Of a stretch of DNA of 64,000 nucleotides, positions 9,004-39,134 are shown in pieces. The notes under the pieces were generated by a model. That model did not search any database and had not been told where the DNA came from. It worked only from the letters and a program-made list of their open reading frames with translations. Numbering within the stretch: position 1 is the stretch's first letter; every line of letters begins with the position of its first letter. The DNA comes from Armatimonadota bacterium (GTDB lineage: Bacteria > Sysuimicrobiota > Sysuimicrobiia > Sysuimicrobiales > Sysuimicrobiaceae): NCBI GenBank assembly GCA_031460175.1, contig JAVKGW010000006.1, forward strand, positions 62,001-126,000. Direction: 5' to 3'. Both the position numbers and the translations under genes were made by a program.

Positions 9004-9075
9004 CGGTTGCCAGGCCCCTGCTCACGCCTGCAAACTAGGGGCGCTCCGCAGGAACGGGAGGGGAGGTGGCAGGCG

Positions 9076-9285: not shown

Positions 9286-9359
9286 CCTCCTCGGACTCCG
9301 TCTTGGCCCTGGAGGCGGCGGAGGCGATGCTCCGGGCGGCGCGTCGAGGTGGACCGTGA
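9282..9359 (+). CDS. 25-residue ORF bridging two overlapping genes
   Basis: ATG overlaps the preceding stop (ATGA) and its own stop overlaps the next start (GTGA). The 25-residue product is a short Ala/Leu/Glu-rich helix. It may be a real micropeptide or only a coupling frame that delivers ribosomes to 9356-9571. Evidence is purely positional. Confidence 0.3.
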   Translation: MTSSDSVLALEAAEAMLRAARRGGP

Positions 9360-9571: not shown

Positions 9572-9602
9572 GCTCGGATAGTCTCGGCATTTTTTTCGCC
9601 CG

Positions 9603-13192: not shown

Positions 13193-13891
13193 GTGCGGGT
13201 ACGGTGGCTCCAGGCATCTAAGGACCAGGTCCAGGCCGCTGTTCGCGGGCTGAGGACGGGGTCCTGGCGGGTGCTGCAGCTGATCGCGGAGGGGCTGGGC
13301 CTGCCGGAGGGTGCCGTGGTGCTGGCGCCCTCCGGTGCGGCTGATGCCTATGAGCGGGCATGCTACGACCTGCTCGCGGCCATGGGTGGGCGGGTGGTGG
13401 TGGACCAGAAAGGTCGCGAGGTGGAGGTGGTGGAGCCTATGCAGGTGCGTCCGGAGGAAGCAGAGCGCCTGGAGCGCACGGTCTGGCTACACGCGTTCAG
13501 CGGTGATCTAAGCGCGGTGCGGCAGCTGACGGGGCGGCCTATCGGCGAGCGAGAGGCACAGAGGTTCCGCGAGTTCGTGGAGCGGGTGGTAACGGGCGAG
13601 GTGCGGGCCACCGCGGGCTGGTGGAAAGCGGTGGAACGCCGGGCCCTGAGCGCGAGGCCGGAGGCGGTACTGTACGCCTCGCTCCTGCGGGCCTACGAAG
13701 CCCGAGGCCTGGGGCGGCGTGAGGTTACTCGGAGGAAGGTTGCCCTGGCGAGTCGGTGCATGGTCTGTGGCACGTCCTTTGAGCGCCGCGGTGCTGCCCG
13801 CACCTGTGGGCGCCCGGAGTGTCGGCGAGAGGCCGCCCGTCGCAGGTTCCGCAGGTGGTACGCGCTCCATAAAGGGCGGCGGGCGCGGTAA
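13193..13891 (+). CDS. Hypothetical element protein with C-terminal zinc finger (232 aa)
   Basis: GTG start; weak ribosome-binding site (GAGG). The first about 175 residues are mixed alpha/beta with no familiar motif (AVVLAPSGAADAYERACYDL; VVVDQKGREVEVVEP). The C-terminus has four cysteines, CMVCGTSF then TCGRPECRREAARRRFRRW, a basic zinc-finger tail likely to bind nucleic acid and similar in layout to CGNR-type fingers. Divergent from the rep operon across a large palindrome, so it may be the element's regulator, by position only. Confidence 0.6.
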   Translation: MRVRWLQASKDQVQAAVRGLRTGSWRVLQLIAEGLGLPEGAVVLAPSGAADAYERACYDLLAAMGGRVVVDQKGREVEVVEPMQVRPEEAERLERTVWLHAFSGDLSAVRQLTGRPIGEREAQRFREFVERVVTGEVRATAGWWKAVERRALSARPEAVLYASLLRAYEARGLGRREVTRRKVALASRCMVCGTSFERRGAARTCGRPECRREAARRRFRRWYALHKGRRAR

Positions 13892-13948
13892 GATAGGCTT
13901 GGGCGGCGGCCCGCACCGCACCTCGCCCAGAGCCACCGCCGCCCACAC

Positions 13949-13982
13949 GAAGGGCAGCTCGAGGAGCACCGGGCTGCCCTTC
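13949..13982 (+). terminator. Hairpin downstream of 13193-13891
   Basis: GAAGGGCAGC (13949-13958) pairs perfectly with GCTGCCCTTC (13973-13982) around a 14-nt loop, 58 nt after the stop codon. No U-tract follows, so it would be a weak intrinsic terminator or an RNA-stabilising hairpin. Confidence 0.4.
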
Positions 13983-14242
13983 TGCCTGCTCGCCGTGGTA
14001 AGATGGTCCTGGTGCGGTAGCCACCGCCCTCGCACGCCGCACCCAGCCTCCTGTGCCGCGGCCTGGACCACCACCCGGGCCGCGGCCTTCTACTTGGCCA
14101 CCCGGGTGATTCACCCTGGCAGGACTTTGGTCCGAGCCTGTCGAATCAGATCCGCACCTCGGCCAAGCAGGAGGCGGGCGGTGCGAAGCCAAGGTTCACC
14201 CTTCCAGGATGCAGGAGTGGTGCGGCCTTCGGGCCCTGAGGT
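13983..14242. other. Non-coding right end of the element with third copy of a 15-mer
   Basis: No convincing gene in 13892-14242. The 15-mer AAGCCAAGGTTCACC, which ends both att repeats (7697-7711, 14352-14366), occurs a third time at 14186-14200 in the same orientation. It may be an integrase arm site or the scar of an earlier, shorter attachment site. GGTAAGATAGG and GGTAAGATGG recur at 13887 and 13997. In the excised circle this stretch would lie upstream of int and could hold its promoter. Confidence 0.5.
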
Positions 14243-14366
14243 GAGCGTTGGCCTCCGGAGCCAAAGGTCGCAGGTTCGAATCCTGCCGGGCGCGCCAGCA
14301 CTTGTACCACAAGGATTCCAGTCACCCTCATCCTCTCTAGACCGGCCCGGAAAGCCAAGGTTCACC
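14243..14366 (+). repeat. attR: right 124-bp direct repeat with tRNA-Arg fragment
   Basis: Identical to 7588-7711. It contains the last 55 nt of a tRNA-Arg (14243-14297) without the acceptor 5' strand and D arm, so it is not a functional tRNA. 14367-14603 beyond it is host DNA in which I see no gene. Confidence 0.93.
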
Positions 14367-14603
14367 CCCGGAGCGGGCGGTCGTGGCCGTCAAGCGGGAA
14401 GGTGGTCTGGTGGCGTTCGAGAGACCCCTCTGCCCCCATCCCACCTTCGCCCGGTACGAGGGCGGGAATCCCCGGGAGGCGCGGGGTTTCCGCTGTATGC
14501 CAACCCGGTAGCCGGTTCGGGACGAGCCCAAAGAATGAGCTGACAGATGTCACCCTTCTCTGGTACCCTGATGGGCCGGAACCAAACCGTGGGGAGGTCG
14601 GAA

Positions 14604-17324: not shown

Positions 17325-18371
17325 ATGCGTCGGATCCTCCAAGCAGTCATCCTCGTCCTCGCGTTGGCCGGGTGGAGCCATGAGGTGGCGGGAAGCCCCG
17401 GGGGCCTCTGGGCCCAGGTGGTGGCCGCGGCCCGGAGGGAGGGAACCCTGGTCCTCTACGACGGGCACGGAGGGGCGCTTCCCACCATCCAGTTCGCCGC
17501 GGACCTGTTCCAGAAAACGTACGGCATCCGGGTGGAGATGAGCGTGATGCGGGCCAGCGAGGCCCAGGAGCGGGTGCGGATCGAGCAGCGGGCGGGCCGA
17601 CCGCTCGCGGACCTCGTCACCGTGGGTCCGAGCCAGGCCTGGCAGATGAAGAAGCTGCAGCAAACCGTGCAGCCCCTCGGAGACCTTCCCAGCAGGAAGA
17701 GGGTGGCCGCGCAGATCCGGCTGAAGCTGCAGGAGTGGGAGATCGAAGACGTCATGCTCGTGGAAGCCGTGCAGCTCTACGGCATCCTGATCAACACCCG
17801 GCTGGTCCCTCCCGGAGAGGAACCCCGAAGCTGGATGGACCTTCTGGATCCCCGGTGGCGGGGCAGGATGATCGCGGACGACCCCCGGGCCTTCGGCGGG
17901 GGATCCGTGTTCTTCGCCGCCACCTACAAGCGACTCGGGCGGGGGTACCACGAGCAACTGGCGGGGCAGCGTCCCTTCTTCACGAGGGCCATCGCGGAGG
18001 CCGCGAACCGGGTGGCGCGGGGAGAGTTCGCCTTGATGTACCCGTTTGCCCTGGGGTTGTATCCGCGGGTCCGGGACCTCCCCAACGTGAAGGTGATCAT
18101 CCCCCGGGAGGGCGCGCCCTACGTGCTGCAGGGGGTTTCGATCCCGCGGGAGGTACCGCACCCCAATGCCGCCCGGCTCTTCGCGGAGCTGCTCCTCTCG
18201 GATGCCGTCCAGCGGAATCTCTACGAGAATTTCGTCCTGCCCGCCGTGGCGGGTTTCATCCGTCAGGCGCCGTCCGAACAGCGAACCCTCCTGGGGGTTC
18301 CCCTGTGGGAGACCTCGGATCCCCCGAGGGGAGAGGAGCTCCTCCGACTCGCCTCGGAGATCTATCGCTGA
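17325..18371 (+). CDS. Periplasmic solute-binding protein (FbpA-like), copy 2
   Basis: 348 residues with a signal sequence (ILQAVILVLALAGWSHEVAG). Shares with copy 1 REGTLVLYDGHGG, VMRASEAQERVRIEQRAGR, the LYGILINTRLV core, DPRWRGRMIADDPRA and the terminal ASEIYR, so the two arose by duplication. Only 15 nt separate them, which suggests one mRNA. They differ in the pocket-flanking stretch after QEWE (IEDVMLVEAVQ against LQQYLLPFLIQ), so ligand preference may have diverged. The FAD oxidoreductase follows 32 nt later and may act on the imported compound (inference). Confidence 0.85.
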   Translation: MRRILQAVILVLALAGWSHEVAGSPGGLWAQVVAAARREGTLVLYDGHGGALPTIQFAADLFQKTYGIRVEMSVMRASEAQERVRIEQRAGRPLADLVTVGPSQAWQMKKLQQTVQPLGDLPSRKRVAAQIRLKLQEWEIEDVMLVEAVQLYGILINTRLVPPGEEPRSWMDLLDPRWRGRMIADDPRAFGGGSVFFAATYKRLGRGYHEQLAGQRPFFTRAIAEAANRVARGEFALMYPFALGLYPRVRDLPNVKVIIPREGAPYVLQGVSIPREVPHPNAARLFAELLLSDAVQRNLYENFVLPAVAGFIRQAPSEQRTLLGVPLWETSDPPRGEELLRLASEIYR

Positions 18372-18403
18372 GGCTCGGCCCGTGGGAGAGGGCGGTTCGG
18401 GTC

Positions 18404-19717
18404 ATGGCGCCTCAGGTGCGAACCCGCACGGCTCGCCGGGAGTCCGGAGCGCGGTGGCGGCTGGAGGGGGAGGTCTGCGTGGTGGGGTCCGGGATCGCGG
18501 GGATCTCCGCCGCCCTGGAAGCCGCCCGACTCGGCCGGGAGGTGGTGCTCGTGGAGGGGGCTCCCTTCATCGGGGGCCAGGCGGTGGGGGCTCCCATCGG
18601 CACCATCGCGGGGCTCTTTTCCTGCGGCCAGAACCCTCACCAGCTGACCCATCTCGTGGCGGACGAGCTCCTGGCCGCCCTGGAACGGGAGGGCGCGGTG
18701 TACCGTCGCTACTCGGAGAAGGCCCGCACCATCGTCCTGGTCTACGACGAGGTGGCGCTGGGGCGCTGGATGGAGCGGGAGGTACACCGGCGGGGGATTC
18801 GAGCGGTGACGGGGGCCGTCCTGCGGGAGGTGCGGCGGGAGGGGGCGAGGATCCACTCCCTCTCCTTCCTCACGCGGTTTGGGGATCTGGAGGTAAAGGC
18901 CTCCATGTACATCGACGCCACGGGGGACGCCGCGGTGGCCTGGTTTGCGGGACTCCCCTGCCGGGAACCGGATCGTCCCATTTACGGGTCGCAGATGGCG
19001 GTCCTGGAGGGCGTGCGGGATGAGTTGCTCCTGCCGGAATCGGCTTTCTTCGCCCGGCTCCAGTCCGTCCTGCAAGAGAAGGGGGACCGCTACGGGTTGG
19101 GACGGAAGGACGGGCTCGTGTTCCTGTTCCCCGGGCGGGGCATGGCCATCGTAAACATGACCCACGTGCAGACTCCTCTCGAACCGGCCGCCTTCACCCG
19201 CCGGAGCCTGGAAGGCAAGGATCAGGTAGATCGGGCGATCCAGCTGCTGCGGGAAGAGTTCCCGGAGGCGTTCGGGAGGGCACGGGTTCGGGTGTACGGG
19301 CAGCTGGGGATCCGGCAGACCCGGTGGATCGTGGGAAGGTACCAACTGTCCGTGGAGGACGTCCGGACGGGCAGGAGGTTCGAGGACGCGGTTGCCCGCA
19401 CCGCGTGGCCCATCGAGCTCCACGACCGGGCGGAAGGGTATTACTGGGAGCCCTTTGAAGAGGGCCACGTACACTACGTGCCCCTCCGGAGCCTGATCCC
19501 AGAGGGGACGGAGAATCTCCTGGCGGTGGGGCGTTGCATCGACGCGGACCCTCTGGCCCTCTCCAGCGTACGGGTGATGGGACCCTGCATCGCCATGGGG
19601 GCCGCGGCCGCACACGTAGCAGACCTCTGCCTCGGGCGCTCCACCCCCGCGCAGGGGGTGGACCTGGAGGCCCTTGCCGAACGACTTCGACCGAACCTGG
19701 AGGATTCCGCTTCCTAA
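18404..19717 (+). CDS. FAD-dependent oxidoreductase (FAD_oxidored type)
   Basis: 437 residues. The N-terminal dinucleotide site VVGSGIAGISAALEAARLG is followed by VLVEGAPFIGGQA, typical of the FAD_oxidored (PF12831-like) family. YIDATGDAAVAWFAG marks the second FAD segment and NLLAVGRCIDAD the C-terminal FAD-binding stretch. ATG at 18404 lies about 20 residues before the glycine motif; the frame upstream of it is a shadow of the binding-protein gene. No signal peptide is seen. Substrate unknown; context suggests catabolism of whatever the tandem binding proteins bring in. Last gene before a new promoter. Confidence 0.85.
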   Translation: MAPQVRTRTARRESGARWRLEGEVCVVGSGIAGISAALEAARLGREVVLVEGAPFIGGQAVGAPIGTIAGLFSCGQNPHQLTHLVADELLAALEREGAVYRRYSEKARTIVLVYDEVALGRWMEREVHRRGIRAVTGAVLREVRREGARIHSLSFLTRFGDLEVKASMYIDATGDAAVAWFAGLPCREPDRPIYGSQMAVLEGVRDELLLPESAFFARLQSVLQEKGDRYGLGRKDGLVFLFPGRGMAIVNMTHVQTPLEPAAFTRRSLEGKDQVDRAIQLLREEFPEAFGRARVRVYGQLGIRQTRWIVGRYQLSVEDVRTGRRFEDAVARTAWPIELHDRAEGYYWEPFEEGHVHYVPLRSLIPEGTENLLAVGRCIDADPLALSSVRVMGPCIAMGAAAAHVADLCLGRSTPAQGVDLEALAERLRPNLEDSAS

Positions 19718-19775: not shown

Positions 19776-19866
19776 GAGCCTCCCGAAAGGGCAAACCCGC
19801 AGCAATGCGGGGGCGCAAAGCTGACGGGACCGCGGACGCGGTTGGCTGGGCTGCCGAAGGAGGCGC
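19776..19866 (+). promoter_or_regulatory. Cyclic di-GMP-I (GEMM) riboswitch aptamer
   Basis: Contains the family's invariant pieces in order: AGGGCAAACC, a P2 hairpin CCCGCA-GCAA-TGCGGG with a GNRA tetraloop, GGCGCAAAGC, then P3 and CTGCCGAAGG. P1 closes GCCTCC (19778-19783) with GGAGGC (19859-19864). The GNRA loop docking against P3 is characteristic of class I aptamers. It precedes a terminator and a secreted FG-GAP protein gene, so c-di-GMP probably controls transcription read-through. Ligand-on or ligand-off logic cannot be settled by eye. Confidence 0.88.
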
Positions 19867-19871
19867 GAGGA

Positions 19872-19915
19872 GGCTGGGGAGACTCCGGTGCAAGGATCCC
19901 CGGCCTGTTTTGTTG
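19872..19915 (+). terminator. Riboswitch expression-platform terminator
   Basis: GGCTGGGGA (19872-19880) pairs with TCCCCGGCC (19897-19905) through one G-U pair and is followed by TGTTTTGTTGT. It begins 5-8 nt after the aptamer P1, the normal place for an intrinsic terminator controlled by a riboswitch. 19916-19990 then holds only leader and the ribosome-binding site. Confidence 0.75.
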
Positions 19916-19990
19916 TGCCCTCCTGTGGACCCTACCGTCCGACCAGAACGGTTCCCCGCAGCGAAAAACATCTCGGGACGAGGTGAGGCC

Positions 19991-21697
19991 ATGCGACCAG
20001 TACGGGTAATCTGTGCTGCGGTTCTGGCTGCATTTCTGGGGGTACAGGGGATTCCCCCTGTTTTCTCTCAGAATGTCGGGAGTATTCAATTTCAGGACGT
20101 GACGGATCAGGTTTTCCCCTATCCGGTCCGACCTCTTTACGGTGAGAGCCACGGGCAATCCTGGGGCTTCATTGCGGTGGGGGACTACGACGGGGACGGC
20201 TGGGACGACCTCTACATCAATGAGATGAGCATGGTCCACACCGTAGAGCACCAGAACATTCACGGGCGGCCTCAATCCGGATATCTCCTGCGGAATACGG
20301 GAGGCCGATTCGTGGACGAAACCTACAAATTGCCGGTTATTGATGAGGACACGGAGCACCGGCATGCGGCGGTGTGGTGCGATTTCGACAACGACGGGGA
20401 TGAGGATTTGCTTTTGGGCACCGGGATGGACGACGAATTCCCCTTGGGACATCCGGAGCGCATGACCGGAAATCTGGACGTGTGGCTCCGGAACGACGGC
20501 ACCCACTTCACCGACGTGAGCCGGCAGGTGACCGTGGAAGGGTACGACACCCGGCACAGCAAGGTGTTCCACGGGTACACCTGTGCGGATGTAGACGGGA
20601 ACGGGTGGCCCGACATTCTCCTCCAGAACAAAAAGGCCCCGGAGGTGTACGGGAGCGGGGGGACTCCCGTCTTCCGTTTGTACCTGAATCTGGGGGGCTT
20701 TCGTTATCGGGAGGCCGCGGCGGAACGGGGCTTCAAGGACACGGAATACCCCACAAGCAACATTGATCCCTGGGGCTTGGGTTGCTATGACTTCAACGGG
20801 GTCCGAGGCATGGACTGCCGTTCTGCAGGGGGGAATCTGGGCCGCTGGATCCTCAATAAAGGCGGCGGGTTCTTCGATGTCCACACGGGAGTATACCGGC
20901 CTATTGCGGACCTCAACGCCTACAGCAACGACCTCGCCTGGGCCGACTACAACGGGGACGGGCTCATTGACCATTCGGATGCCGGATTGACACAGATCGT
21001 GCGGATCTTCGTCAACAACGGGTCCACGGTCCACAATGATGGGATGGCCGATTCCACTAAGGCAGCGGCTTCGAATCGGGTGCGCCTGCGCAGCACTGCT
21101 GCCTTGGATGCCGACAACGATGGGGATGCGGATCTCTTCGTCACGGTCGAAGGTTCGGGTCCGCAGACGCCGGATGGATGGACGACCAAGGCTCCGGATC
21201 TGTTCTTCCGCAACGACAATATGACATTCGTGGAAATGGCCAGGCAGGTCGGACTAGACGGCGGAATTTGCGTGGGTAAGCGGGCGGATTCTCGGCCCGC
21301 GGATCACTGCGCGGGAGGTGGCGGGGCTGCGGTCGTCGACTACGACCGGGATGGCCGGCTGGATCTTGTGGTTTCCTACACGCCCTGGTTCAAGCCTGCC
21401 GGGGGTGTGGAGCGGGTGCGGGTGTACCGCAACGTGACCCAGAATCCCGGGAACTGGATCGGGGTGATCGTACAGGGCAGGAGATCTTTGGGGAGTCGTG
21501 TTACGGTTGAGGCGTGCGGGAAAACCCACGTCCGGCAAGTGGTGAACGACACGCATCATCTGGCCCAGAACACGCGGGCGATCCACGTGGGGTTGGGAGG
21601 GTGCACGAACCGACCTTATGTGGTCATCCAGTGGTCGGACGGGGCTGTGACCCGGACCTACCTTAGCCGGAACCGGTACCACCTGGTGAGGCGGTGA
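19991..21697 (+). CDS. Secreted FG-GAP/VCBS repeat protein with ASPIC/UnbV domain
   Basis: 568 residues with a signal peptide (about 1-27, CAAVLAAFLGVQGIPPVFS). At least six DxDxDG-type calcium-binding repeats (VGDYDGDGWDDLYIN, CDFDNDGDEDLLLG, ADVDGNGWPDILLQ, ADYNGDGLIDHSD, LDADNDGDADLFV, VDYDRDGRLDLVV) indicate an extracellular beta-propeller. An ASPIC/UnbV domain follows (about 500-565, NWIGVIVQGR, IQWSDGAV). ATG chosen with GAGGTGAGG upstream. Controlled by a c-di-GMP-I riboswitch. Its A/T content looks higher than that of neighbouring genes, a possible sign of transfer. Adhesion or matrix role is inferred. Confidence 0.88.
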   Translation: MRPVRVICAAVLAAFLGVQGIPPVFSQNVGSIQFQDVTDQVFPYPVRPLYGESHGQSWGFIAVGDYDGDGWDDLYINEMSMVHTVEHQNIHGRPQSGYLLRNTGGRFVDETYKLPVIDEDTEHRHAAVWCDFDNDGDEDLLLGTGMDDEFPLGHPERMTGNLDVWLRNDGTHFTDVSRQVTVEGYDTRHSKVFHGYTCADVDGNGWPDILLQNKKAPEVYGSGGTPVFRLYLNLGGFRYREAAAERGFKDTEYPTSNIDPWGLGCYDFNGVRGMDCRSAGGNLGRWILNKGGGFFDVHTGVYRPIADLNAYSNDLAWADYNGDGLIDHSDAGLTQIVRIFVNNGSTVHNDGMADSTKAAASNRVRLRSTAALDADNDGDADLFVTVEGSGPQTPDGWTTKAPDLFFRNDNMTFVEMARQVGLDGGICVGKRADSRPADHCAGGGGAAVVDYDRDGRLDLVVSYTPWFKPAGGVERVRVYRNVTQNPGNWIGVIVQGRRSLGSRVTVEACGKTHVRQVVNDTHHLAQNTRAIHVGLGGCTNRPYVVIQWSDGAVTRTYLSRNRYHLVRR

Positions 21698-30278: not shown

Positions 30279-30403
30279 CGTCTCGGCCCATTGTAGGTGC
30301 CCCCTTGCTCAGTGACTTCTACCCAAACGGAGGGTTTGGATCTATCAAGAGGAGGATTGCGGGGAAGGGCCGGGTTGGGAGAGGCAGGGTACAATGGTTC
30401 GGG

Positions 30404-31444
30404 ATGCCGTTCACGGTGGAGGACCTGCAGGATCTGCTCCGGCTGCTGGAGCAGCAGCCCCAGTGGAAGGAAGCGGTGCGGGCCGCCCTCTGGAGCGAGG
30501 CGGAGTTCGCCTCTTGGCTTCGGGAGAGGCTTCCCAGGTTGCTGCAGGAGGACCCCCGGTTCGGGGCAGAGGTGATCGGAGTCCTCCAGCAGACCCTGAG
30601 TCCCCGGTCGGAGTTCGTACGGGTGCTGGAGGAGATCCGGGCCCTCCGGGAGGACTTCGGCCGCCGGTTTGAGGTCATCGAGCGGACCTTGCAGCTCCAC
30701 ACGGAGCGGTTCGAGGCCATGGACCGCCGGTTTGAGGTCATCGAGCGGACCTTGCAGCTCCACACGGAGCGGTTCGAGGCCATGGACCGCCGGTTTGAGG
30801 CCATCGAGCGGACCTTGCAGCTCCACACGGAGCGGTTCGAGGCCATGGACCGCCGGTTTGAGGCCTTGGAGCGGGAGATGGACCGCCGGTTCGAGGCGGT
30901 GGACCGGCGGTTCGAGGCGGTGGACCGGCGGTTCGAGGCGGTGGACCGGCGGTTCGAGGCCCTGCAGCGGGAGATGGACCGCCGGTTCGAGCTGCAGGCG
31001 AGGATCCTGGCCGAGCACAGCAGAACCCTGCGCCGGATGGAGGTAGGGCTAGGGAGTCTCGGCCGCCGGTTCGGGAAGGGATTCGAGGAGGCCGTGCGGG
31101 CCACCATCGAGGAGTTCGCGGGCGTCGGCCCCCTCACAGCGGAGCGCCTCGTGATCCGGGACGTGAACGGCGAGCTGTACGGGGTACCCAACCAGGAGGT
31201 GGAGTTCGACGCCTTCGTGCACGACGGGCGGCGGTTCCTGGTGGAGGTGAAGGGTTTCGCGGAGCCGGAGGACGTCCTGAACTTCGTCCGGAAGGTGGAG
31301 TTCGCCCGCCGCCACCTTGCCGAGCCCTTCGAGGCGGTGCTCCTCGCGCCGTACGCCACGAAGCGGGCCGTGGAACTGGCCCGGGAGCTGGGGGTGCGGC
31401 TCCTGATGGAGCCCGAGGAGGAAGCCCCCGACGAGGGAAACTAG
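30404..31444 (+). CDS. Coiled-coil repeat protein with C-terminal nuclease-like domain (DUF3782-like)
   Basis: 346 residues. N-terminal helical region starting MPFTVEDLQDLLRLL (1-85), a long coiled coil made of near-identical repeats (RRFEVIERTLQLHTERFEAM three times, then FEAVDRR three times), and a C-terminal alpha/beta domain (about 215-346) with VEFDAFVHDGRRFLVEVKGF, which matches a D-x(n)-E-x-K restriction-like core. The family is known to me as DUF3782, common in thermophiles and cyanobacteria. Nuclease activity is unproven. A TACAAT box lies 8 nt before the ATG. A short relative lacking the coiled coil is at 36635-36982. Confidence 0.75.
   Translation: MPFTVEDLQDLLRLLEQQPQWKEAVRAALWSEAEFASWLRERLPRLLQEDPRFGAEVIGVLQQTLSPRSEFVRVLEEIRALREDFGRRFEVIERTLQLHTERFEAMDRRFEVIERTLQLHTERFEAMDRRFEAIERTLQLHTERFEAMDRRFEALEREMDRRFEAVDRRFEAVDRRFEAVDRRFEALQREMDRRFELQARILAEHSRTLRRMEVGLGSLGRRFGKGFEEAVRATIEEFAGVGPLTAERLVIRDVNGELYGVPNQEVEFDAFVHDGRRFLVEVKGFAEPEDVLNFVRKVEFARRHLAEPFEAVLLAPYATKRAVELARELGVRLLMEPEEEAPDEGN
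30668..30952 (+). repeat. Coding tandem repeats: 63-nt x3 and 21-nt x3
   Basis: Three 63-nt units (30668-30856), nearly identical in DNA, precede a short unique stretch and three identical 21-nt units (30890-30952). All keep the frame, so copy number can change without breaking the coiled coil. Near-identity at DNA level indicates recent expansion or gene conversion. Confidence 0.85.
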
Positions 31445-31478: not shown

Positions 31479-31517
31479 GATCCCGGGTTTTCCTTCCCAT
31501 GGAGGATTGCCGGGGTT
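31479..31517 (+). promoter_or_regulatory. PEP-CTERM leader element A (two-tier hairpin)
   Basis: Outer stem GATCCCGG (31479-31486) with CCGGGGTT (31510-31517), inner stem TCCTTC (31491-31496) with GGAGGA (31501-31506), four-base loop CCAT. It lies 58 nt before the start of the 61-aa PEP-CTERM gene. Related to elements at 31822 and 37210. Preceded by the imperfect palindrome AAGCGGTTTAACCGTTT (31463-31479). Confidence 0.6.
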
Positions 31518-31564
31518 TGGCGAGGTCGGAGAATGGGGGGCGAGAACACCCGAGGAGGCCTGGA

Positions 31565-31750
31565 ATGGGGCGGCAGGCGGGATACGCGGCGGTTGTGGTG
31601 ACGGCGGTGCTGCTCTCCCTCGCGGACGCTCTGCCGGCCTGGGCGCAGGTCCGACCCGTGGAGGTCCCTGAGCCGGGCGGGTTCGCCCTCATGGGCACCG
31701 CCCTGTTCGGGGCCCTCGCGGCGTGGAGGCTGTTGAGGCGGCGGGCGTGA
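31565..31750 (+). CDS. Minimal PEP-CTERM protein (61 aa)
   Basis: Signal peptide (about 1-28, hydrophobic GYAAVVVTAVLLSLADALPA ending AWA), then only about eight residues, then a full PEP-CTERM sorting signal: VPEPGGFALMGTALFGAL followed by AAWRLLRRRA. If both signal peptidase and exosortase cut it, almost nothing would remain, so it may be a pseudosubstrate, a membrane peptide or a competitor for sorting. ATG preceded by GAGGAGG at 6-7 nt. Its leader has the shared hairpin. The short length is not due to a visible frameshift. Confidence 0.75.
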   Translation: MGRQAGYAAVVVTAVLLSLADALPAWAQVRPVEVPEPGGFALMGTALFGALAAWRLLRRRA

Positions 31751-31821
31751 GGGCCTCCGTCGTTGCAGGCTGTAAAGCAGCCTCCGGAGGCGGAAGCCCA
31801 CGGCTTGGTCGACCGGACGAG

Positions 31822-31857
31822 CGGGCCCATTCCTCCAAACGGAGGATGGACGTCCCG
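31822..31857 (+). promoter_or_regulatory. PEP-CTERM leader element B (two-tier hairpin)
   Basis: Outer CGGG (31822-31825) with CCCG (31854-31857), inner TCCTCC (31831-31836) with GGAGGA (31841-31846), loop AAAC. The outer pair is base-swapped relative to A and C, as if covarying. Ends 39 nt before the start codon at 31897 (inner stem 50 nt before). Another hairpin, AGGCTG-TAAAG-CAGCCT, lies upstream at 31767-31783. Confidence 0.55.
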
Positions 31858-31896
31858 ACGGCCTGGAGGTAAGGGTTTGGGGTGAAGGAGGAGGAC

Positions 31897-32745
31897 ATGC
31901 GACGTTGCAAACGCAGGTTGGCTGGGCGGGTGCCCCTGACCGCGGGGGTGATCGCCGGGCTCGTCGGTGCCTCCGCGCTGGCCGCCCATGCCTTCGTCAT
32001 CAACCTGGGCGGGCCCGCGGGTTACAGGGCTCGGATCGAAGTCACCCAGGTGGGGCTCAGCCAGCTCAAGATCGTCGTCACGAACCTGACCACCCTTGGG
32101 ATGTCCGTTCCTCTGCCTACCGGGGTGTCAGGAGGTTGCCCCCAGAATGTCACGTCGGGTATCGACGCAGCCTGCCGGCTGCTCACGAGCTTCGGGTATA
32201 CGCCCAATGCGATCTCTCAGAACATCACCGGTGGGTCGGCGAAGATCGCCACCGGGTCCACGGGGAAGGGGGACAAGTCGCCCTTCAACTATTCCGCCGG
32301 GGACGACTGGAGCGCGGAGTGGGGGTTTGGGAACAACGCGCCGATGGACGGCACGGGTAATCTCGACTTCCTGTCGACGAACGCATCACACATGACCCGG
32401 TTCGCAACCAGTCCCAACCGGGACGGGCCGGCAGGGCTTGACGGGCCGCAGGGCGGGCTGCTGAGTAGAGCGTTCACCGGCGCGGGTGGACTCGGGTTCG
32501 TGCAGGACACCCTGGAGTTCCTCGTGAACTACAGCGCCAACCTGACGGCTGCGGACCTCTTAGCCCTCCAGAACGCGACCTGGTGGGTGGAGTTCGGGAG
32601 CAGCGGCTACTTCCTGTGTGTCGGGCCGGATCCGCGCTGCCCGCCTCCACTCCGTGCCTCCGAACCCGGCTCCCTTGCCCTGATGGGTACGGCGCTCGCG
32701 GGTGTGCTGGCGGTAGGGGGGCTACGCCGCAAGCACCGGGCCTGA
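31897..32745 (+). CDS. PEP-CTERM surface protein (282 aa)
   Basis: Signal peptide (about 1-32, VPLTAGVIAGLVGASALAAH), a 220-residue Gly/Ser/Asn-rich mature part with several possible N-x-S/T sites (NVTSG, NITGG, NATWW), and a C-terminal sorting signal EPGSLALMGTALAGVL then RRKHRA. The signal reads SEPGS instead of the usual PEP, but its LMGTALxG core matches that of the 61-aa neighbour. ATG follows GAAGGAGGAGGAC. Adjacent to the exosortase gene, so it is a likely dedicated substrate. Mature function unknown. Confidence 0.85.
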   Translation: MRRCKRRLAGRVPLTAGVIAGLVGASALAAHAFVINLGGPAGYRARIEVTQVGLSQLKIVVTNLTTLGMSVPLPTGVSGGCPQNVTSGIDAACRLLTSFGYTPNAISQNITGGSAKIATGSTGKGDKSPFNYSAGDDWSAEWGFGNNAPMDGTGNLDFLSTNASHMTRFATSPNRDGPAGLDGPQGGLLSRAFTGAGGLGFVQDTLEFLVNYSANLTAADLLALQNATWWVEFGSSGYFLCVGPDPRCPPPLRASEPGSLALMGTALAGVLAVGGLRRKHRA

Positions 32746-32908
32746 TCCGCCGGACCGCAGGAATCCCGGCGGCGGTCGCGGGGATCCTGCCGCCTCCTCC
32801 AGGCTCCGCGTTCCGCGGACAGGCTCCTCCGAACGATCCGGCCTGATCCTCCCCTCGGACGAAGGCGAACGGCGGCTCGGGGTGCCATTATTCGGAAGGC
32901 GGACCGTC

Positions 32909-33733
32909 ATGGGAGGAGGAGTGCGCGGTTACGGCGCTGCGGCGGGAATCGGGGGAATCGTCGGCCTCCTGGGTTGGCTCTATGCCCCGGTCCTCCGGGA
33001 GATGGCCTCCCAGTGGGCGGTGGACACCACCTACGGGTACGGGTACTACATCCCGCCGGTGGCCGCCTACCTCGTGTGGGAGCGGCGCAGGGCCCTCGCG
33101 GCCGCCCGGGCGGAGGGAACTTGGCTCGGGCTGGCCGTCCTGCTGTTGGGGCTCGGGGCCCTGGTGGTCGGCCGGGCCGGCGGGATCGCGCTCCTGTCCC
33201 GTACCTCCCTGATCCCGGTGCTCTTCGGCCTCGTCCTGCTCCTCGGGGGGTGGCGGACGGCGCGCCTGGTGGCCTTCCCGATCCTGTTCCTGAGCCTCAT
33301 GATCCCCCTCCCGCAGGGCCTCCTGCAGCGGCTCACCTGGCCCCTGCAGATCTTCACGGCCCAGTTCAGCACCGAAGTGCTGCGCCTGATGGGTTACCCC
33401 GTGTACGTGGAGGGAATCTACATCGACCTCCCCAACGTGCGGCTGGAGGTGGCGGAGGCCTGCAGCGGCTTCCGGTCCCTCGTGGCCCTCGGGGCCACGG
33501 GGATCCTGCTGGCGCACCTCACCCAGGAGCGGTGGCGGGAGCGGGTGGTGCTCGTGGCCTCCGTGGTGCCCATCGCGGTCCTGGCGAACGCGGTGCGGGT
33601 GACCAGCAACATCGCCCTGGGGATCTACGAGGGCACGTACCACACGGTCTCCGGGTGGATGGTGTTCGTGGCGGCCACGGCCATGCTGGTCGGGGTCTCC
33701 TCCGCCCTGGGGAGAGGGGGGAGGGCCGCGTGA
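32909..33733 (+). CDS. Exosortase (EpsH family)
   Basis: 274-residue membrane protein with about eight hydrophobic helices. The proposed active site is complete: Cys in EVAEACSGFRSLVAL, Arg in ANAVRVTSNIALG, His in TYHTVSGWMVF. Exosortases cleave PEP-CTERM signals at the periplasmic side of the membrane and attach or release the protein. ATG 32909 is preferred over the GTG at 32882 because the extra nine residues are hydrophilic and unlike the family. Its stop overlaps the GTG of epsI. 32746-32908 upstream holds no gene or clear promoter. Confidence 0.93.
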   Translation: MGGGVRGYGAAAGIGGIVGLLGWLYAPVLREMASQWAVDTTYGYGYYIPPVAAYLVWERRRALAAARAEGTWLGLAVLLLGLGALVVGRAGGIALLSRTSLIPVLFGLVLLLGGWRTARLVAFPILFLSLMIPLPQGLLQRLTWPLQIFTAQFSTEVLRLMGYPVYVEGIYIDLPNVRLEVAEACSGFRSLVALGATGILLAHLTQERWRERVVLVASVVPIAVLANAVRVTSNIALGIYEGTYHTVSGWMVFVAATAMLVGVSSALGRGGRAA

Positions 33734-34344
33734 GCGGTCCGAAGCTCTTCGCGGCCCTCGCGAGTCTCTTCCTGGCCGCGGTGACGGTGCAGGCCACCCT
33801 GGGACACGCGGTCCCCCTCCGGGTGAGCCTCACGGAGTTTCCCCGCTCGATCGGTCCGTGGGTGGGCTCGGACGAACCCCTCGACCCCGAGGCCCTCTCG
33901 CGCGCGCGTCCAGATGCCTACCTGAGCCGCCGCTACACCGATCCCCGGGGACCATCCGTGCTCCTGTACGTCGCGTACTTCGCCCGGGATTCCTCTCGGG
34001 CCCGGATCCAGGCCGCGTGCTGGGGAGATTGCCAGGTGCGCCAGACGGCCACACACCGCGTGGAGATCGGCGGTCGCACGCTCGCGGTGAACCGGGCCCT
34101 GGTGGTGCAGGAGGGGGAGCCCGCGGTGATCCTGTACTGGTTCCAGCTGGGACAGCGCATCCTGCAGGATCCCGATCAGCTCAGGCTGAGCCAGGTGCGG
34201 CGGGCGCTTCTGGGGCGGCGGTCGGACGGGGCCCTCGTGCGGATCTCGAGTCCGGTGCGTTCAGATCCCGAAGAAGCCCTGAGCCGGGCGGAGGCGTTCC
34301 TGCGGGCGGTCCTTCCCGGGCTTCTGCGGCACCTTCCCGAGTGA
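33730..34344 (+). CDS. epsI: EpsI-family exosortase-associated protein
   Basis: 204 residues. N-terminal membrane/signal helix (FAALASLFLAAVTVQATLG), then PRSIGPWVGSDEPLDPE and YVAYFARDS, the EpsI (DUF3485-like) layout. EpsI accompanies exosortase, often fused to its C-terminus; here it is separate but starts with a GTGA overlap. In many family members a His-x-Pro-x-x-Cys segment follows the YY/YF strand; here the segment reads RIQAACWGDCQ, so the His/Pro are absent while Cys is doubled. Role in EPS export or sorting is not established. Confidence 0.8.
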   Translation: MSGPKLFAALASLFLAAVTVQATLGHAVPLRVSLTEFPRSIGPWVGSDEPLDPEALSRARPDAYLSRRYTDPRGPSVLLYVAYFARDSSRARIQAACWGDCQVRQTATHRVEIGGRTLAVNRALVVQEGEPAVILYWFQLGQRILQDPDQLRLSQVRRALLGRRSDGALVRISSPVRSDPEEALSRAEAFLRAVLPGLLRHLPE

Positions 34345-34355
34345 GGAGGCGAAAG

Positions 34356-36593
34356 ATGACGGTGGACGCGTTGCCCGTATCCAAGGCCCGGTCGAGCCGG
34401 CCCAGGCGGGTCTGGATCCTGGGAGTGGTGTTCCTCGGCGTGCTGGGCTTGGCCACCGCCGGGCTAGCGGTGTGGCGGAGCCCTCAAGCGCGGCTGGCCC
34501 GCAGCTGGAGGCAGGGGGAGACCTTCTTCGCCGCGGAGCGGTACCGGGAGGCCATCATCGCCTACCGGAACATCCTGCAGGTCCGGCCCCAGGACGCCCG
34601 CGCCCACTACCGGCTGGGCGTCTCCTACCTCCGCATCGGAGACCTCCCCCGGGCCCACGCCTTCCTCCGGAAGAGCCTGGAACTCGATCCGGACCTCCTC
34701 GACGCGCGGCTGGACCTCGCGGAGCTGTACCTGTCGGCCCGGCAACCCGCCCGGGCGGAGGAAGAGGCCCGGCGCGCCCTCTCCCGCAGGCCCAGAGACG
34801 CGAAGGGCCACCTGCTGCTGAGCCAGGCCGTGGGAGCCCGCGGGGATCCCGGGCCGGCTCTCGGGCTCGTGGACGCCGCGTTGCGGTTGGATCCGAAGCT
34901 CGGCCGGGCGTACGTCTGGAAGGCCACGCTGCTTTTGGCCCAAAAGCGGGTGGAAGACGCGGAGCGGATCCTGCGGGAGGGGGTACGGCGTGCCCCTCAG
35001 GCTCCCGAGCCCAGGGTCTCCCTCGCGGCGCTGCTCGCCCGGACGGACCGGCAGGAGGAGGCGGAGCGGGTCCTCACGGAGGCTGCAGAAGCCCTCCCGC
35101 GGCGGCCCGAGCCGCTTCTGGCCCTGGGGGACTTCTACACATCCCGGCGCAAGCTCCCCGAGGCCATGGACCACTACCGGCGGGCGTGGGACCTCGCCCC
35201 GCACGCCAACGCGGCCGGGATCAAGCTGGGAGAGCTGCTCTTGCTACAGGAGCGGTGGGAGGAGGCCGCGGAGGTGGCCCGCAGGCTCCTCCTCGCGAAC
35301 GCCAACGATCCCCTCGGCCACTACCTCCTGGGCCGGGTGCGGCTGGGAGAAGGGAAGCTCGAGAAGGGGATCGAGGCCCTGCGGGCCACGGTGCTCCTGG
35401 CCCCAGATCTCGTGCAGGCGCGGTTCCTGCTGGCCCAGGCCTTCCTGGTGCAGGGGAAGCCCGAGCGGGCCCGGGAGCAGCTGGAGGAGGCCGCTCGGCG
35501 CGCGCCCCGGTTCGCCCTAGCCCGAGTAGCCCTCGCGGACGTCTACGCGGCCCTGGGGATGCCGGATCGAGGGGAGCGGGAGCTCCGGGAGCTCGTGACC
35601 CTCTTCCCGAGGAGTGCGGCGGCATACCTGGCCCTGGGAGACTTCTACGCGCGCCGGCAGCGGCTCCAGCCTGCTCTAGACGCCTACCGGAAGGCCGTGG
35701 AGGTGGAGCCCAAGGACGTGGCGGCCCGGATCCGTGCGGGGATCGTGTACCGGATGCTCAGGGACTACGAGGCCGCGCTGCGGGAGTTCGAGGTCGCGCT
35801 TGCGATCCGGCCCGACGCCGCCGACGCCCTCGCGGAGATCGCCCGGGTCTACATCCTCCGCGGGCGGCCGGATCTCGCCATTGCCCGAGTGCAGCGGGAG
35901 ATCCGGAAGTCCCCCGAGCACGCGAACGCGTACGTGGTGCTGGGGATGATCTACGAGGAGATGGGGGATCTGGTGCGGGCGGAACAGGCCTACATCCGGG
36001 GAACCGTCGCGAACCCTAAACTCCCCAGAGCCTACCTCATGCTGGGCCGGCTGTACACCCGCAAGGGGAAGTTCGAGCTCGCGGCCCGGAAGTACGAGGA
36101 GGCGCTGCGGCTGGACCCCCGCAACCCGCACCTGTACACCCTCATCGGCAACCTCCACGAGCAGCAGGGCAACGTGGACCTGGCCCAGAGCTACTACGAG
36201 CGGGCGTTGCGGGTGGACCCCAACCACGCCCTGGCCGCCAACAACCTGGCCTACACCCTCGCGGACCGAGGGGTGAACCTCGACCGGGCCCTGGAACTGG
36301 CGAAGATGGCCAGGGAGCGGATGCCCAAAGACCCTCATGTGGCGGACACCCTGGGATGGGTGTACTACCGGCGGGGGCAACTCCGAGAGGCCCTCCCGCT
36401 CCTGGAGGAGGCGGCGCGGGGTCTACCGGACAACCCCACGGTCCGCTACCACCTGGGCATGACCCACCACCGGCTCGGGAACCGCGCGGAAGCCAGGCGG
36501 GCGCTCGAGGCCGCCCTGGGCCTCAAACGAGACTTCCCGGAGTCCGGGGAGGCAAAGCGGGTACTGGAGGAACTGAGGGCCCCCGTGAGGTGA
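34356..36593 (+). CDS. TPR protein of the PEP-CTERM system (PrsT-like)
   Basis: 745 residues. One N-terminal membrane anchor (VWILGVVFLGVLGLATAGLA) and then about 18-19 tetratricopeptide repeats to the C-terminus (for example AHYRLGVSYLRIGDLPRAHA, ALDAYRKAVEVEPKDVAARI, YYERALRVDPNHALAANN). PrsT proteins of this plan occur beside exosortase in EPS loci, where they are thought to act in polymer export or protein sorting. ATG with GAGGAGGCGAAAG upstream, 11 nt after epsI, so these three genes form an operon. Somewhat shorter than the usual about 900 residues. Confidence 0.85.
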   Translation: MTVDALPVSKARSSRPRRVWILGVVFLGVLGLATAGLAVWRSPQARLARSWRQGETFFAAERYREAIIAYRNILQVRPQDARAHYRLGVSYLRIGDLPRAHAFLRKSLELDPDLLDARLDLAELYLSARQPARAEEEARRALSRRPRDAKGHLLLSQAVGARGDPGPALGLVDAALRLDPKLGRAYVWKATLLLAQKRVEDAERILREGVRRAPQAPEPRVSLAALLARTDRQEEAERVLTEAAEALPRRPEPLLALGDFYTSRRKLPEAMDHYRRAWDLAPHANAAGIKLGELLLLQERWEEAAEVARRLLLANANDPLGHYLLGRVRLGEGKLEKGIEALRATVLLAPDLVQARFLLAQAFLVQGKPERAREQLEEAARRAPRFALARVALADVYAALGMPDRGERELRELVTLFPRSAAAYLALGDFYARRQRLQPALDAYRKAVEVEPKDVAARIRAGIVYRMLRDYEAALREFEVALAIRPDAADALAEIARVYILRGRPDLAIARVQREIRKSPEHANAYVVLGMIYEEMGDLVRAEQAYIRGTVANPKLPRAYLMLGRLYTRKGKFELAARKYEEALRLDPRNPHLYTLIGNLHEQQGNVDLAQSYYERALRVDPNHALAANNLAYTLADRGVNLDRALELAKMARERMPKDPHVADTLGWVYYRRGQLREALPLLEEAARGLPDNPTVRYHLGMTHHRLGNRAEARRALEAALGLKRDFPESGEAKRVLEELRAPVR

Positions 36594-36634
36594 GCCTGCA
36601 CTCCCGGGCGCAAGTCCAGGGTGGACCGCCGTCC

Positions 36635-36982
36635 TCACTTCCCCACCGCGGCGATGAGGAGCACCCCGGTGCGGTCTGCGGCTTCCCGGGCCGAGGGGTG
36701 GATCACGAACCCGAACAGGGCCGGGACCGGAGGGCCCGCGAGTTGCGGGGCGAGGCTTCGGAAGCGCCGCACCAGGGTCTCCACGTCCCGGCCGTAGATG
36801 CGGCTGCGGACCTCGCCCACCACCACGACCCGCTCTCCGTCCCGCATCCCCTCCCCGAAGAAGTCTACCTCCACCTCCTCGCCGTCCACGGTGAGCAGCA
36901 CCCGGCGCAGCTCGTCCCGCCACTCCGGGCGCTCCCTGAGCAGCCTCACGAGGTCCTGGAAGTCCTTCACCGTGAACGGCAT
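36635..36982 (-). CDS. Short nuclease-like protein, truncated relative of 30404-31444
   Basis: 115 residues. It begins MPFTVKDFQDLVRLLRERPE, clearly matching the N-terminus of the 346-aa protein, but jumps after about 30 residues to a compact core (EEVEVDFFGEGM, VVVVGEVRSRIYGRDVET) with the same D-x(n)-E-x-R/K pattern; the lysine is replaced by Arg. The whole coiled coil is missing. The 5' flanks also match: both have TACAAT 8-9 nt before the ATG. It is a separate subfamily or an internal deletion product. Function unknown. Confidence 0.7.
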   Translation of the reverse strand: MPFTVKDFQDLVRLLRERPEWRDELRRVLLTVDGEEVEVDFFGEGMRDGERVVVVGEVRSRIYGRDVETLVRRFRSLAPQLAGPPVPALFGFVIHPSAREAADRTGVLLIAAVGK

Positions 36983-37303
36983 CTCACAGGCATTGTACCT
37001 CAGGCCACGGGTCGCCTTCCGGGGCCGTCTTGCGGGGTCAGGGGCCGGTGCAGGGGAGGGCGAGGAACTCTGTCGTCCCGGCTTCTTAGCAGGCGCTGGA
37101 GCACGGTGCGATGGTGCGGGTGCCAGGGGGAGAAGTCCGGAGTGGCCCGGGGGTTGTAAGGGCTAAAAGGCTGAGGCCCTCTCCGAGGGTGGTGGGGCCC
37201 CCGTAAATTGATCCCGGAGAATCCTCCTTTTGGAGGAGAGACCGGGGTGGGCTTTCGGGCGAGGATGAAACCGGTCCGAGCGACTCCAGATGGGGAGGTC
37301 TGC
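36983..37303. other. 321-bp intergenic region with PEP-CTERM leader C
   Basis: Holds the TACAAT promoter box of the minus-strand gene at its left edge, a GC-rich stretch without a credible frame, a hairpin-forming segment around 37161-37200 (AGGGC...GGCCCT, and GAGGGTGGTGGGGCCCCC), leader element C and the strong ribosome-binding site GGGGAGG of the gene at 37304. Confidence 0.5.
37210..37248 (+). promoter_or_regulatory. PEP-CTERM leader element C (two-tier hairpin)
   Basis: Outer stem ATCCCGG (37211-37217) with CCGGGGT (37242-37248), inner stem TCCTCC (37222-37227) with GGAGGA (37232-37237), loop TTTT. It shares TTGATCCCGG and its 4-nt spacing to the inner stem with element A. Inner stem ends 66 nt before the ATG of the next PEP-CTERM gene. 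Confidence 0.6.
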
Positions 37304-38065
37304 ATGGGGGACTCGAAGGAAATGCGGCAGTCGGGGCCGTGGGTGGTCCGGGGATTGCGGTGGGTTGCCTTGCCGGCCCTCGCCACCCTGTTTCTCGTGT
37401 TGGGCGGGGCAGCGGTAGCTGGCGCTGTGCCGGTTCTCGACTTCAATATGGACGCGACACACCCCGCGGGTGCGAGCATCTCGTACGCGGGGGGAACGAA
37501 TCCGCTGGTGGGCATAAACATCAGCGTGGATAACGTAACAGGGCTGGGTACGCCTTTGAACAGCGGCATCACGCTAACCATCGTGGGAGGAATCCTCAAC
37601 TTCACCACGGGGAACCTTATCGGGTCTACTTCGACGTCCTGGCTGTTTGGGGGCGGAGGTTCTATCACCCTTGTCGGAAAGATTCCGGATCTTGGCATCA
37701 ATACCCTCACCACGCTGCTGAGCGGGACCTGGACGAGCGCCAGCGTGTTCAAGATCGGCGATACGTTCCGGATCGTGGGAGGCACGTTCGTGGACACGAA
37801 GCTCAAGGCCCTTACCGACTACTTCGGACTCCCAGACGGGGTCACGCTCTACCTGGGGAACATCAACTTGAGCTTTAGTGCTACGGGAAGTCCACCCAAC
37901 GCGTTCTCAAGCACTCGGGTCCTGAGTGGGGACCTGTTGAACACGCCCAGAGTTCCGGAGCCGTCCGCGGGTCTGCTCTTCGCGTCCGCGCTCGCCTCGG
38001 CTCTCGGGGCCGTTTCCCTGGGCTCGCTCAGGCGTAAGGGCACGCCCGCCTGCGCGGCGGCCTAG
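37304..38065 (+). CDS. PEP-CTERM surface protein (253 aa)
   Basis: Signal peptide (about 20-47, LRWVALPALATLFLVLGGAA), a beta-rich mature part full of Gly/Thr/Asn (VLDFNMDATHPAGASISYAG, GNLIGSTSTSWLFGGGG), and a C-terminal sorting signal VPEPSAGLLFASALASALGA then SLRRKGTP. ATG 37304 with GGGGAGG 6 nt upstream is preferred; the open frame begins 32 codons earlier inside the leader hairpin. Divergent from the short nuclease-like gene. Followed by a very strong terminator, so it is monocistronic. Probably a surface or matrix protein processed by the nearby exosortase. Confidence 0.88.
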   Translation: MGDSKEMRQSGPWVVRGLRWVALPALATLFLVLGGAAVAGAVPVLDFNMDATHPAGASISYAGGTNPLVGINISVDNVTGLGTPLNSGITLTIVGGILNFTTGNLIGSTSTSWLFGGGGSITLVGKIPDLGINTLTTLLSGTWTSASVFKIGDTFRIVGGTFVDTKLKALTDYFGLPDGVTLYLGNINLSFSATGSPPNAFSSTRVLSGDLLNTPRVPEPSAGLLFASALASALGAVSLGSLRRKGTPACAAA

Positions 38066-38143: not shown

Positions 38144-38434
38144 CTATCCCTTCCCTCCGCTCAAGGCCAGCAGCGTCTCCAGCTCCTCCCGGAACGCCTC
38201 CCGGCCCTCGGGGGTGGCCCGGACCCAGGTGCGGGGCCTACGGCCCACGTACCCTTTGTCCACCGCCACATATCCCGCTTCTTCCAGGACCCGAAGGTGG
38301 GCGGAGAGGTTCCCGGGCGTGAGGCCCAGGAGCTCCCGGAGCGCCTCGAATTCCAGGGCGCTTTCCTCCGGCAGGGCCGATAAAGCGGCCATGATGCGTA
38401 GCCGCGTGCCCTGCGCGAGGGCATCCCGGGCCAT
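38144..38434 (-). CDS. Winged-helix transcriptional regulator (HTH_34/ArsR-like)
   Basis: 96 residues. TRLRIMAALSALP, LEFEALRELLGLTPGNLSAH with LRVLEEAGYV as recognition helix and wing entry, and RTWVRATPEGREAF as the wing, fit the single-domain regulators often paired with a membrane protein. No metal-binding cysteines, so not a classic ArsR sensor. Its start directly abuts the stop of the upstream membrane gene. It probably represses this two-gene operon, perhaps at the palindrome 39020-39029. Confidence 0.85.
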   Translation of the reverse strand: MARDALAQGTRLRIMAALSALPEESALEFEALRELLGLTPGNLSAHLRVLEEAGYVAVDKGYVGRRPRTWVRATPEGREAFREELETLLALSGGKG

Positions 38435-39004
38435 CTACCGCCACCCCCACCGGGTTCCCGTGAGGAGCCCGCTCGCCAGCAGGGCAACCGCCCAGGCGAG
38501 GGCGCCGATGGGCCTCAGGTGCGCGGGGGCCAGGAAGTGGCCCAGCAGCACGGCAACCCCCGCCGCGGTTCCGGCCAGGGCCGCCACCGGGAACCACCAC
38601 AGCCCGTAGAGCACGTACCCCAGGGCGAAGACAAGGTGCGGTAGAAGGCTACCCTCCCCTGACCAATCCAGCCCCGCAAGATGCGGGAGCCCGAGGGCCA
38701 CCAGCGTCACCAGGGCCCAGTGGAGCGGGTGCCGCCACCACAGGGGATCCCGGACCCGGACCTGAGGTCCCAGCACCCAGCCCACGACGATGCTCGCCAC
38801 GGCTCCCAGTCCAACCAGGATCGGCCAAGCGACCCTTCTCACCTCCTGGGAACCCGTCAGCTCTGCGACCCCTCCCCCGAGGAGCACAAGCCCCCACAGG
38901 ATGGAGTACGGGGCGAATAGGCCGGCGGTGGCCCAGCGCCGGGCCCGATCCACCACGGCCCGCACCTCCCGGACTTCCCGCACCAGCCCTTCCTCAGCTC
39001 CCAT
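38435..39004 (-). CDS. Integral membrane protein paired with the regulator (189 aa)
   Basis: Six hydrophobic segments (APYSILWGLVLLGGGVAEL, PILVGLGAVASIVVGWVLG, HWALVTLVALGLPHLAG, HLVFALGYVLYGLWWF, VAALAGTAAGVAVLLGHFL, GALAWAVALLASGLL) after a charged N-terminus. ATG 39004 has GGGAGGTGGGAGAAC upstream; the longer frame includes the promoter region. No family name recognised. Such membrane proteins with small winged-helix partners are common and mostly uncharacterised. Both hydrophobicity and operon structure are directly visible. Confidence 0.75.
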   Translation of the reverse strand: MGAEEGLVREVREVRAVVDRARRWATAGLFAPYSILWGLVLLGGGVAELTGSQEVRRVAWPILVGLGAVASIVVGWVLGPQVRVRDPLWWRHPLHWALVTLVALGLPHLAGLDWSGEGSLLPHLVFALGYVLYGLWWFPVAALAGTAAGVAVLLGHFLAPAHLRPIGALAWAVALLASGLLTGTRWGWR

Positions 39005-39019
39005 GTTCTCCCACCTCCC

Positions 39020-39029
39020 AGAGTACTCT
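39020..39029. promoter_or_regulatory. Candidate operator of the 39004-38144 operon
   Basis: Perfect 10-bp palindrome AGAGTACTCT, with half of it (GTACT) repeated at once (TGTACTAC), 16 nt ahead of the membrane-protein ATG. TTTGCAAAT follows at 39043-39051. Natural target for the autoregulating winged-helix protein. Confidence 0.4.
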
Positions 39030-39134
39030 GTACTACAAACACATTTGCAAAATCCGCGTAGACTTGTCAAGGGGCTGCCTCAAGCGGGGTTCTTGGGCTT
39101 ACGAAGGGCTCAGGACGGCTACCGGGATGGGTCT

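Follow-up and report, generated by a model that had tools for sequence, protein, structure and literature searches.

What coordinates the genes for exosortase substrates in a bacterium whose three PEP-CTERM genes at one exosortase locus all carry a similar element in their leaders? The locus lies in a stretch of 64,000 nucleotides (nt) of an Armatimonadota bacterium of the family Sysuimicrobiaceae (assembly GCA_031460175.1, contig JAVKGW010000006.1, positions 62,001 to 126,000), which is referred to below as the window. An earlier note on this DNA had described the elements, A, B and C, as a two-tier hairpin with the inner stem TCCTYC-N4-GGAGGA. The elements are most probably DNA operator sites, predicted to stand at the promoters of an exosortase/PEP-CTERM regulon and to be bound by a candidate class II activator. 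The motif recurs before further genes of the same system, it keeps a fixed distance to a -10-like hexamer, and a conserved RNA structure fails to account for its copies.

The genome of the window is denoted G000 and G001 is a sister species, the one other genome in the genus. The sister family is another family within the same order and has G039 and G041 among its genomes. Searches for the motif and its profile covered a comparison set of 46 related genomes. The earlier note placed elements A, B and C correctly, and they are the only exact matches to TCCTYC-N4-GGAGGA in the window. The statement that the form occurs nowhere else in the window is correct for this exact inner dyad and fails for a fourth, imperfect copy (X) before the exosortase gene. 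The sites and their genes are as follows.

31479-31483, + strand: GATCC box of element A, half-site-like, 12 nt before the dyad; in the same position in C, in the exosortase copy and in copies of G001 and G039
31491-31506, + strand: core dyad of element A, TCCTTC-CCAT-GGAGGA (TCCTTCCCATGGAGGA), exact pattern match and profile match
31529-31534, + strand: candidate -10 of element A, GAGAAT, 22 nt after the dyad, the best -10 score at this site
31565-31750, + strand: PEP-CTERM gene A, 61 amino acids (PF07589 at 23.5 bits, above the cut-off)
31831-31846, + strand: core dyad of element B, TCCTCC-AAAC-GGAGGA (TCCTCCAAACGGAGGA), exact pattern match and profile match
31870-31875, + strand: weak -10 of element B, TAAGGG, from -10 scoring
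31897-32745, + strand: PEP-CTERM gene B, 282 amino acids (PF07589 at 16.1 bits, C-terminal, below the cut-off of 20.7)
32835-32862, + strand: copy X, GATCC-N7-TCCTCC-CCTC-GGACGA (GATCCGGCCTGATCCTCCCCTCGGACGA)
32886-32891, + strand: candidate -10 of copy X, CATTAT, 23 nt after the dyad
32909-33733, + strand: exosortase, XrtA-like (PF09721 at 2e-71; NCBIfam XrtA at 211.7 bits, cut-off 208)
37210-37214, + strand: GATCC box of element C, from the composite-pattern search and the site alignment
37222-37237, + strand: core dyad of element C, TCCTCC-TTTT-GGAGGA (TCCTCCTTTTGGAGGA), exact pattern match and profile match
37261-37266, + strand: weak candidate -10 of element C, GAGGAT, 23 nt after the dyad
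37304-38065, + strand: PEP-CTERM gene C (C-terminal PEP motif visible, weak PF07589 hit)

The start of gene C at 37304 is preferred over 37265 because GGGGAGG stands upstream of it at 37292-37298, and with this start the distances of 50-66 nt from the elements to the PEP-CTERM start codons are right.

The recurring unit is TGATYC-N6/7-TCCTYC-N4-GRAGGA, followed by a -10-like hexamer about 23 nt on. In the site alignment GATCC precedes the dyad by 12 or 13 nt in A, C, X and most copies of G001, and is not recognisable in element B. The same alignment bears out that A and C have TTGATCCCGG in common with identical spacing. Copy X shows one mismatch to the composite pattern, has an orthologous copy in G001 and reaches a profile E-value of 4e-6, though X is itself a training site of the model; the exosortase gene is likely under its control. 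With up to one mismatch, GATCC-N7-TCCTYC-N4-GRAGGA was found, among the matches listed, three times in G000, four times in G001, three times in G039 and otherwise once each in G012 and G040. Two of the sites in G039 precede exosortase and PrsT genes. Two hits in G041, obtained from the DNA pattern alone, precede PEP-CTERM genes ending in VPEPSS... tails; PEP-CTERM substrates are thus reachable from their upstream DNA.

Copies of the motif outside the locus were identified in the same genome and in its relatives. The inner dyad occurs at 20 places in G000 by an unbiased whole-genome scan, one of them (D) ahead of a fourth PEP-CTERM gene, which lies on another contig and is unlinked to the locus; the chance of a dyad falling in one such unseen leader is about 0.001. 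The G000 list of PEP-CTERM genes is possibly incomplete; genes A and B went undetected in the Pfam six-frame search. Sixteen places lie outside PEP-CTERM leaders and 14 of these were examined: 13 are inside called open reading frames (ORFs) and one (L011) is where the heuristic calls no gene, a heuristic that extends ORFs to the first possible start and therefore also calls D and C coding. In G001 the dyad stands before the orthologs of A and D (74% identity for D). It also precedes a PEP-CTERM gene found at the position of C, inverted and with no homology to C visible. In the sister family copies were found before PEP-CTERM, exosortase and PrsT genes. The further PEP-CTERM leaders on which the earlier note had staked its proposal therefore exist, in G000 and in relatives.

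Some copies have less familiar neighbours. In G001 a composite GATCC-dyad at L091:8860 (+ strand) precedes a gene of unknown function (9061-9717), with no -10 at offset 23. On the same L091 the region of gene B is duplicated and partly broken (13531-14560 and 18237-19122), one copy being seemingly fused to the A gene and another adjoining a glycosyltransferase gene fragment. Sites L150 (G041, C277) and L156 (G039, C79) have a perfect TCCTCCTTTTGGAGGA dyad and conserved flanks with no clear gene behind.

The association with exosortase-system genes was measured in the sister family with weights taken from the two genomes of this genus and a textbook -10 matrix. The sample comprised 26 PEP-CTERM, exosortase or PrsT leaders and 108 other leaders from the same genomes; real leaders of other genes served as controls in place of random shuffles, which had overstated significance because purine-rich ribosome-binding sites mimic the half-sites. 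The dyad alone placed 7 of the 26 leaders above the 95th percentile of the controls, against 6 of the 108 (p 0.004). With the dyad plus -10 the figures were 11/26 and 6/108 (p 1e-5), a test that is not fully independent because offset 23 was chosen on a set including some of the tested leaders. The top-scoring control is a PIG-L gene beside the exosortase in G039, which may itself belong to the regulon. The looser GATC form gave 12 matches in 12 sister-family genomes against none for the reversed control, not all of them within exosortase-system leaders. A search of the sister family with the strict dyad showed no enrichment over its reversed control because most sites there are degenerate, and they are separated only by the composite with GATC or by the -10. 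All matches of the sequence-only profile below E=0.003 were in G000, G001, G036, G039 and G041. Four of these five genomes carry an exosortase; in G041, which is 64% complete, none was detected and PEP-CTERM genes are present. The profile recovered D and B'', both held out of training, most other top matches being training sites.

The position of the dyad relative to the promoter is the second regular feature. At many sites hexamers resembling a -10 begin 23 nt after the dyad (TATGAT, TATGGT, TATCCT, TATACT, TATAAG, TTTAGT, TACGCT and CATTAT). Over 19 sites the -10 score has a mean of -2.7 at the next offset and of 0.1 at this one, and none of 2000 shuffles or rotations reached the latter. Matches to TTGACA are highest at offset 0 (mean 2.56, against 0.67-1.61 at the other tested offsets), which is 17 nt before the offset-23 hexamer, and the -35 there is degenerate. 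With the -10 hexamer 23 nt downstream, the dyad would span about -51 to -36 and precede the predicted transcript. A centre near -43.5, a poor -35 and a fixed spacing of 23 nt to the -10 are typical of class II activation. The predicted layout is that of a class II activator-dependent sigma-70 promoter, with a -10 at fixed distance and a poor -35 beside the operator.

The operator would consist of the inverted repeat TCCTYC-N4-GRAGGA, usually with a third, half-site-like TGATYC box 12-13 nt upstream, and would be followed by an abutting poor -35 hexamer and, 23 nt from the dyad, by a TANNNT -10 hexamer. The activator, as a dimer, would sit on the dyad at about -51 to -36, centred at about -43.5, and contact RNA polymerase in the class II mode at weak sigma-70-type promoters. 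The expected outcome would be the joint production of exosortase, PrsT (in the sister family) and substrate proteins. The bound protein is presumed to activate rather than repress, sigma-70 to be the sigma factor, and the activator to be a response regulator of the NarL/LuxR family.

Several observations weigh against this reading. Fifteen of the 26 exosortase-system leaders of the sister family score like controls, and knowledge of the -10 had already guided the first recognition of several of its weaker sites. The -10 hexamers are weak at B, C and A', the orthologous sites L089 and L151 have GATAAT at offset 27, and a scan for consensus promoters found none in the region. The best -10 offset also differs in A (22) and D (24). 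A further point concerns folding: A, B, C and A' fold unusually well (z -2.4 to -3.9), A, B and C having energies of -20.5, -19.2 and -24.4 kcal/mol and z-scores of -2.4, -3.1 and -3.2 against dinucleotide shuffles. Under the operator reading these strong folds can be interpreted only as extended symmetry, GATCC being mirrored downstream or the dyad extended.

The four well-folding sites all lie in PEP-CTERM gene leaders, as would be expected of a structured RNA leader, a two-tier hairpin controlling translation or transcript stability of the exosortase substrates. Such a leader is nevertheless very unlikely. A, B and C do fold with outer stems as described, yet the outer stem is not the shared feature: it is absent in D, in the exosortase copy and in most copies of the relatives, and the outer helix pairs in 41% of cells (in one fixed register, which fits C and is shifted by one in A). 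Of 15 singly folded sites, seven (D, X, C', X', D', prsT39 and L082) show no excess stability over shuffles, with z above -0.5. RNAalifold predicted no pairs on 17 aligned sites. The covariation suspected from the swapped outer pairs of B did not materialise, the inner and outer pairs showing none above shuffles (326 of 500 shuffles reached the observed score). Over 19 sites the inner stem has 95 Watson-Crick cells, 8 C:A, 4 G:T and 7 other; C:A mismatches and disrupted pairs occur in the exosortase copies and in D', L149 and L089. A C:A breaks an RNA pair and is the same half-site variant as a G:T on the other strand, so a DNA half-site tolerates it; D and D' differ by just such a change. The predicted -10 position would, moreover, leave the dyad outside the transcript. 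Elements A, B and C match no Rfam family at the gathering score, the best weak hit being whalefall-1 (15.2 bits against 37), which agrees with the earlier opinion that they are not a known riboswitch. A leader-peptide reading (an ATG in the loop of A, short ORFs after B and D) was rejected, as these features are not common to all sites. The idea of a coordinating RNA or DNA element for exosortase substrates thus survives in its DNA half, as a shared coordinating element, and not in its RNA half.

That the copies merely descend from a mobile repeat or from a leader that was duplicated, and have no regulatory role, is extremely improbable. B and the duplicated G001 copy (L091, about 19122) do belong to related genes, but the flanks outside the boxes differ among A, B, C and D, conservation is limited to the motif instead of extending over whole leaders, and boxes and spacing recur before exosortase, PrsT, PEP-CTERM and PIG-L genes in two families. 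A repressor covering the -35 region from the same operator is a more serious competitor, although still rather unlikely: the dyad abuts the -35 position and repressor operators are likewise palindromic, whereas the class II geometry set out above and the absence of a consensus promoter from the region scan speak against it. The class II activator remains the preferred reading. Other genes of the locus are listed here.

33730-34344, + strand: EpsI-family protein (DUF3485), from the family search
34356-36593, + strand: PrsT-type TPR protein (TIGR02917 at 326 bits, cut-off 312.2)
38144-38434, - strand: winged-helix (HTH_34) gene beside C, found among the 46 genomes in G000 and G001 only

The winged-helix protein has in its favour its place inside the exosortase locus and its restriction to this genus; since the gene is confined to G000 and G001 and was not found in sister-family genomes carrying the same operator, the sites of that family are beyond its explanation, and it is an unlikely activator. 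Response regulators of the NarL/LuxR type, compared among relatives within the fetched loci, are neighbours of exosortase or PEP-CTERM genes in G015, G036 and G039. Two types are conserved in G000 and G001 and share 64-71% and 57-63% identity with their sister-family counterparts. In G000 the two regulator genes (L238:5084-5794, - strand, and 7061-7792, + strand) enclose a histidine-kinase-like gene and have as neighbours a nucleotide-sugar dehydrogenase and a polysaccharide chain-length/tyrosine kinase gene; the group shares a contig with the exosortase and is about 50 kb away from it. By position and conservation, this pair beside the polysaccharide chain-length gene would be the leading activator candidate. 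Against it, the NarL-type pair also occurs in genomes without a detected exosortase (G012, G021, G030 and G033), the type I regulator is also present in G003, and within the fetched loci none of the regulators could be seen to follow the motif. The response regulator beside the exosortase of G039 (L097:4444-5109) was discarded as a common activator because nothing in G000 resembles it at more than about 41% identity. A wider reading, plausible without being favoured, is a two-component regulon dedicated to this system and separate from the sigma-54/PrsR type. Its NarL/LuxR-family response regulator would act through a three-half-site operator, set at a constant distance from the -10, to turn on exosortase, PrsT and substrates jointly, with a link between exosortase and the control of exopolysaccharide.

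A precedent for such an operator is the NarL-family regulator ComA of Bacillus subtilis, which binds TTGCGG-N4-CCGCAA plus extra half-sites (PMC4797271). TCCTYC-N4-GRAGGA with TGATYC has the same build of inverted hexamers, a 4-nt spacer and an additional half-site, the first half is the better conserved in both, and both stand upstream of the promoter. The operator predicted here differs in its half-site (TCCTYC against TTGCGG), in the distant organism and in the extra elements, which lie upstream here and downstream in ComA promoters. EpsA (TIGR03020), the regulator associated with XrtB and PEP-CTERM, resembles the present candidates in its DNA-binding end, but the match covers its C-terminal part only, at 58 and 54 bits against a cut-off of 170, and the candidates have a receiver domain.

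Shared regulatory sites are known for PEP-CTERM genes of Proteobacteria, where the cis-regulatory site belongs to the sigma-54/PrsK-PrsR system (Haft et al. 2006, PMC1569441); the same paper noted that the site was confined to Proteobacteria and that further motifs and regulators were still to be discovered (PMC1569441). The present elements are of this known kind, a DNA site that many PEP-CTERM genes share in their upstream regions, in coordination with the exosortase system and close to the start codon, the motif itself apparently being new. The proteobacterial promoter has -24(GG)/-12(GC) with a separate enhancer, whereas here a 6-4-6 dyad lies 23 nt from TANNNT. A sigma-54 promoter was rejected: with up to one mismatch the pattern TGGC-N7-TTGC has 54 matches in the window where 49.6 are expected, which is chance level; no match is exact, and the intervals from the dyads to the starts of genes A, B and C contain none. 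A literature search, with subscription journals outside its reach, found no description of the motif. A concrete candidate for further PEP-CTERM regulation is now available: the motif is exact, its promoter geometry is fixed, and the genes and a shortlist of regulators can be named.

Two genes that look related and both contain MPFTV.DFQDL lie on either side of the exosortase locus, at 30305-31444 (+ strand) and 36635-36982 (- strand). The former, which is the longer, has DUF3782/PDDEXK matches and the latter resembles a truncated version. A membrane-protein-like gene (38435-39070, - strand) adjoins the winged-helix gene; it has no match in Pfam or NCBIfam, and the gene order is the same in G001.

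Riboswitches for cyclic diguanosine monophosphate (c-di-GMP; RF01051, RF01786) occur elsewhere in G000, one type being divergent to the D gene; they differ from A-C, which match no Rfam family. Those beside D are of the c-di-GMP-II type (L005:1273-1357, - strand, G000 C1, and L100:2504-2588, + strand); in each of the two genomes they diverge from the PEP-CTERM gene of D and face prepilin/pseudopilin-like genes. The second messenger may be connected to the regulon. A c-di-GMP-I riboswitch is also present in the window (19780-19858, + strand, 57.6 bits), just ahead of a gene encoding FG-GAP and UnbV/ASPIC domains (19805-21697).

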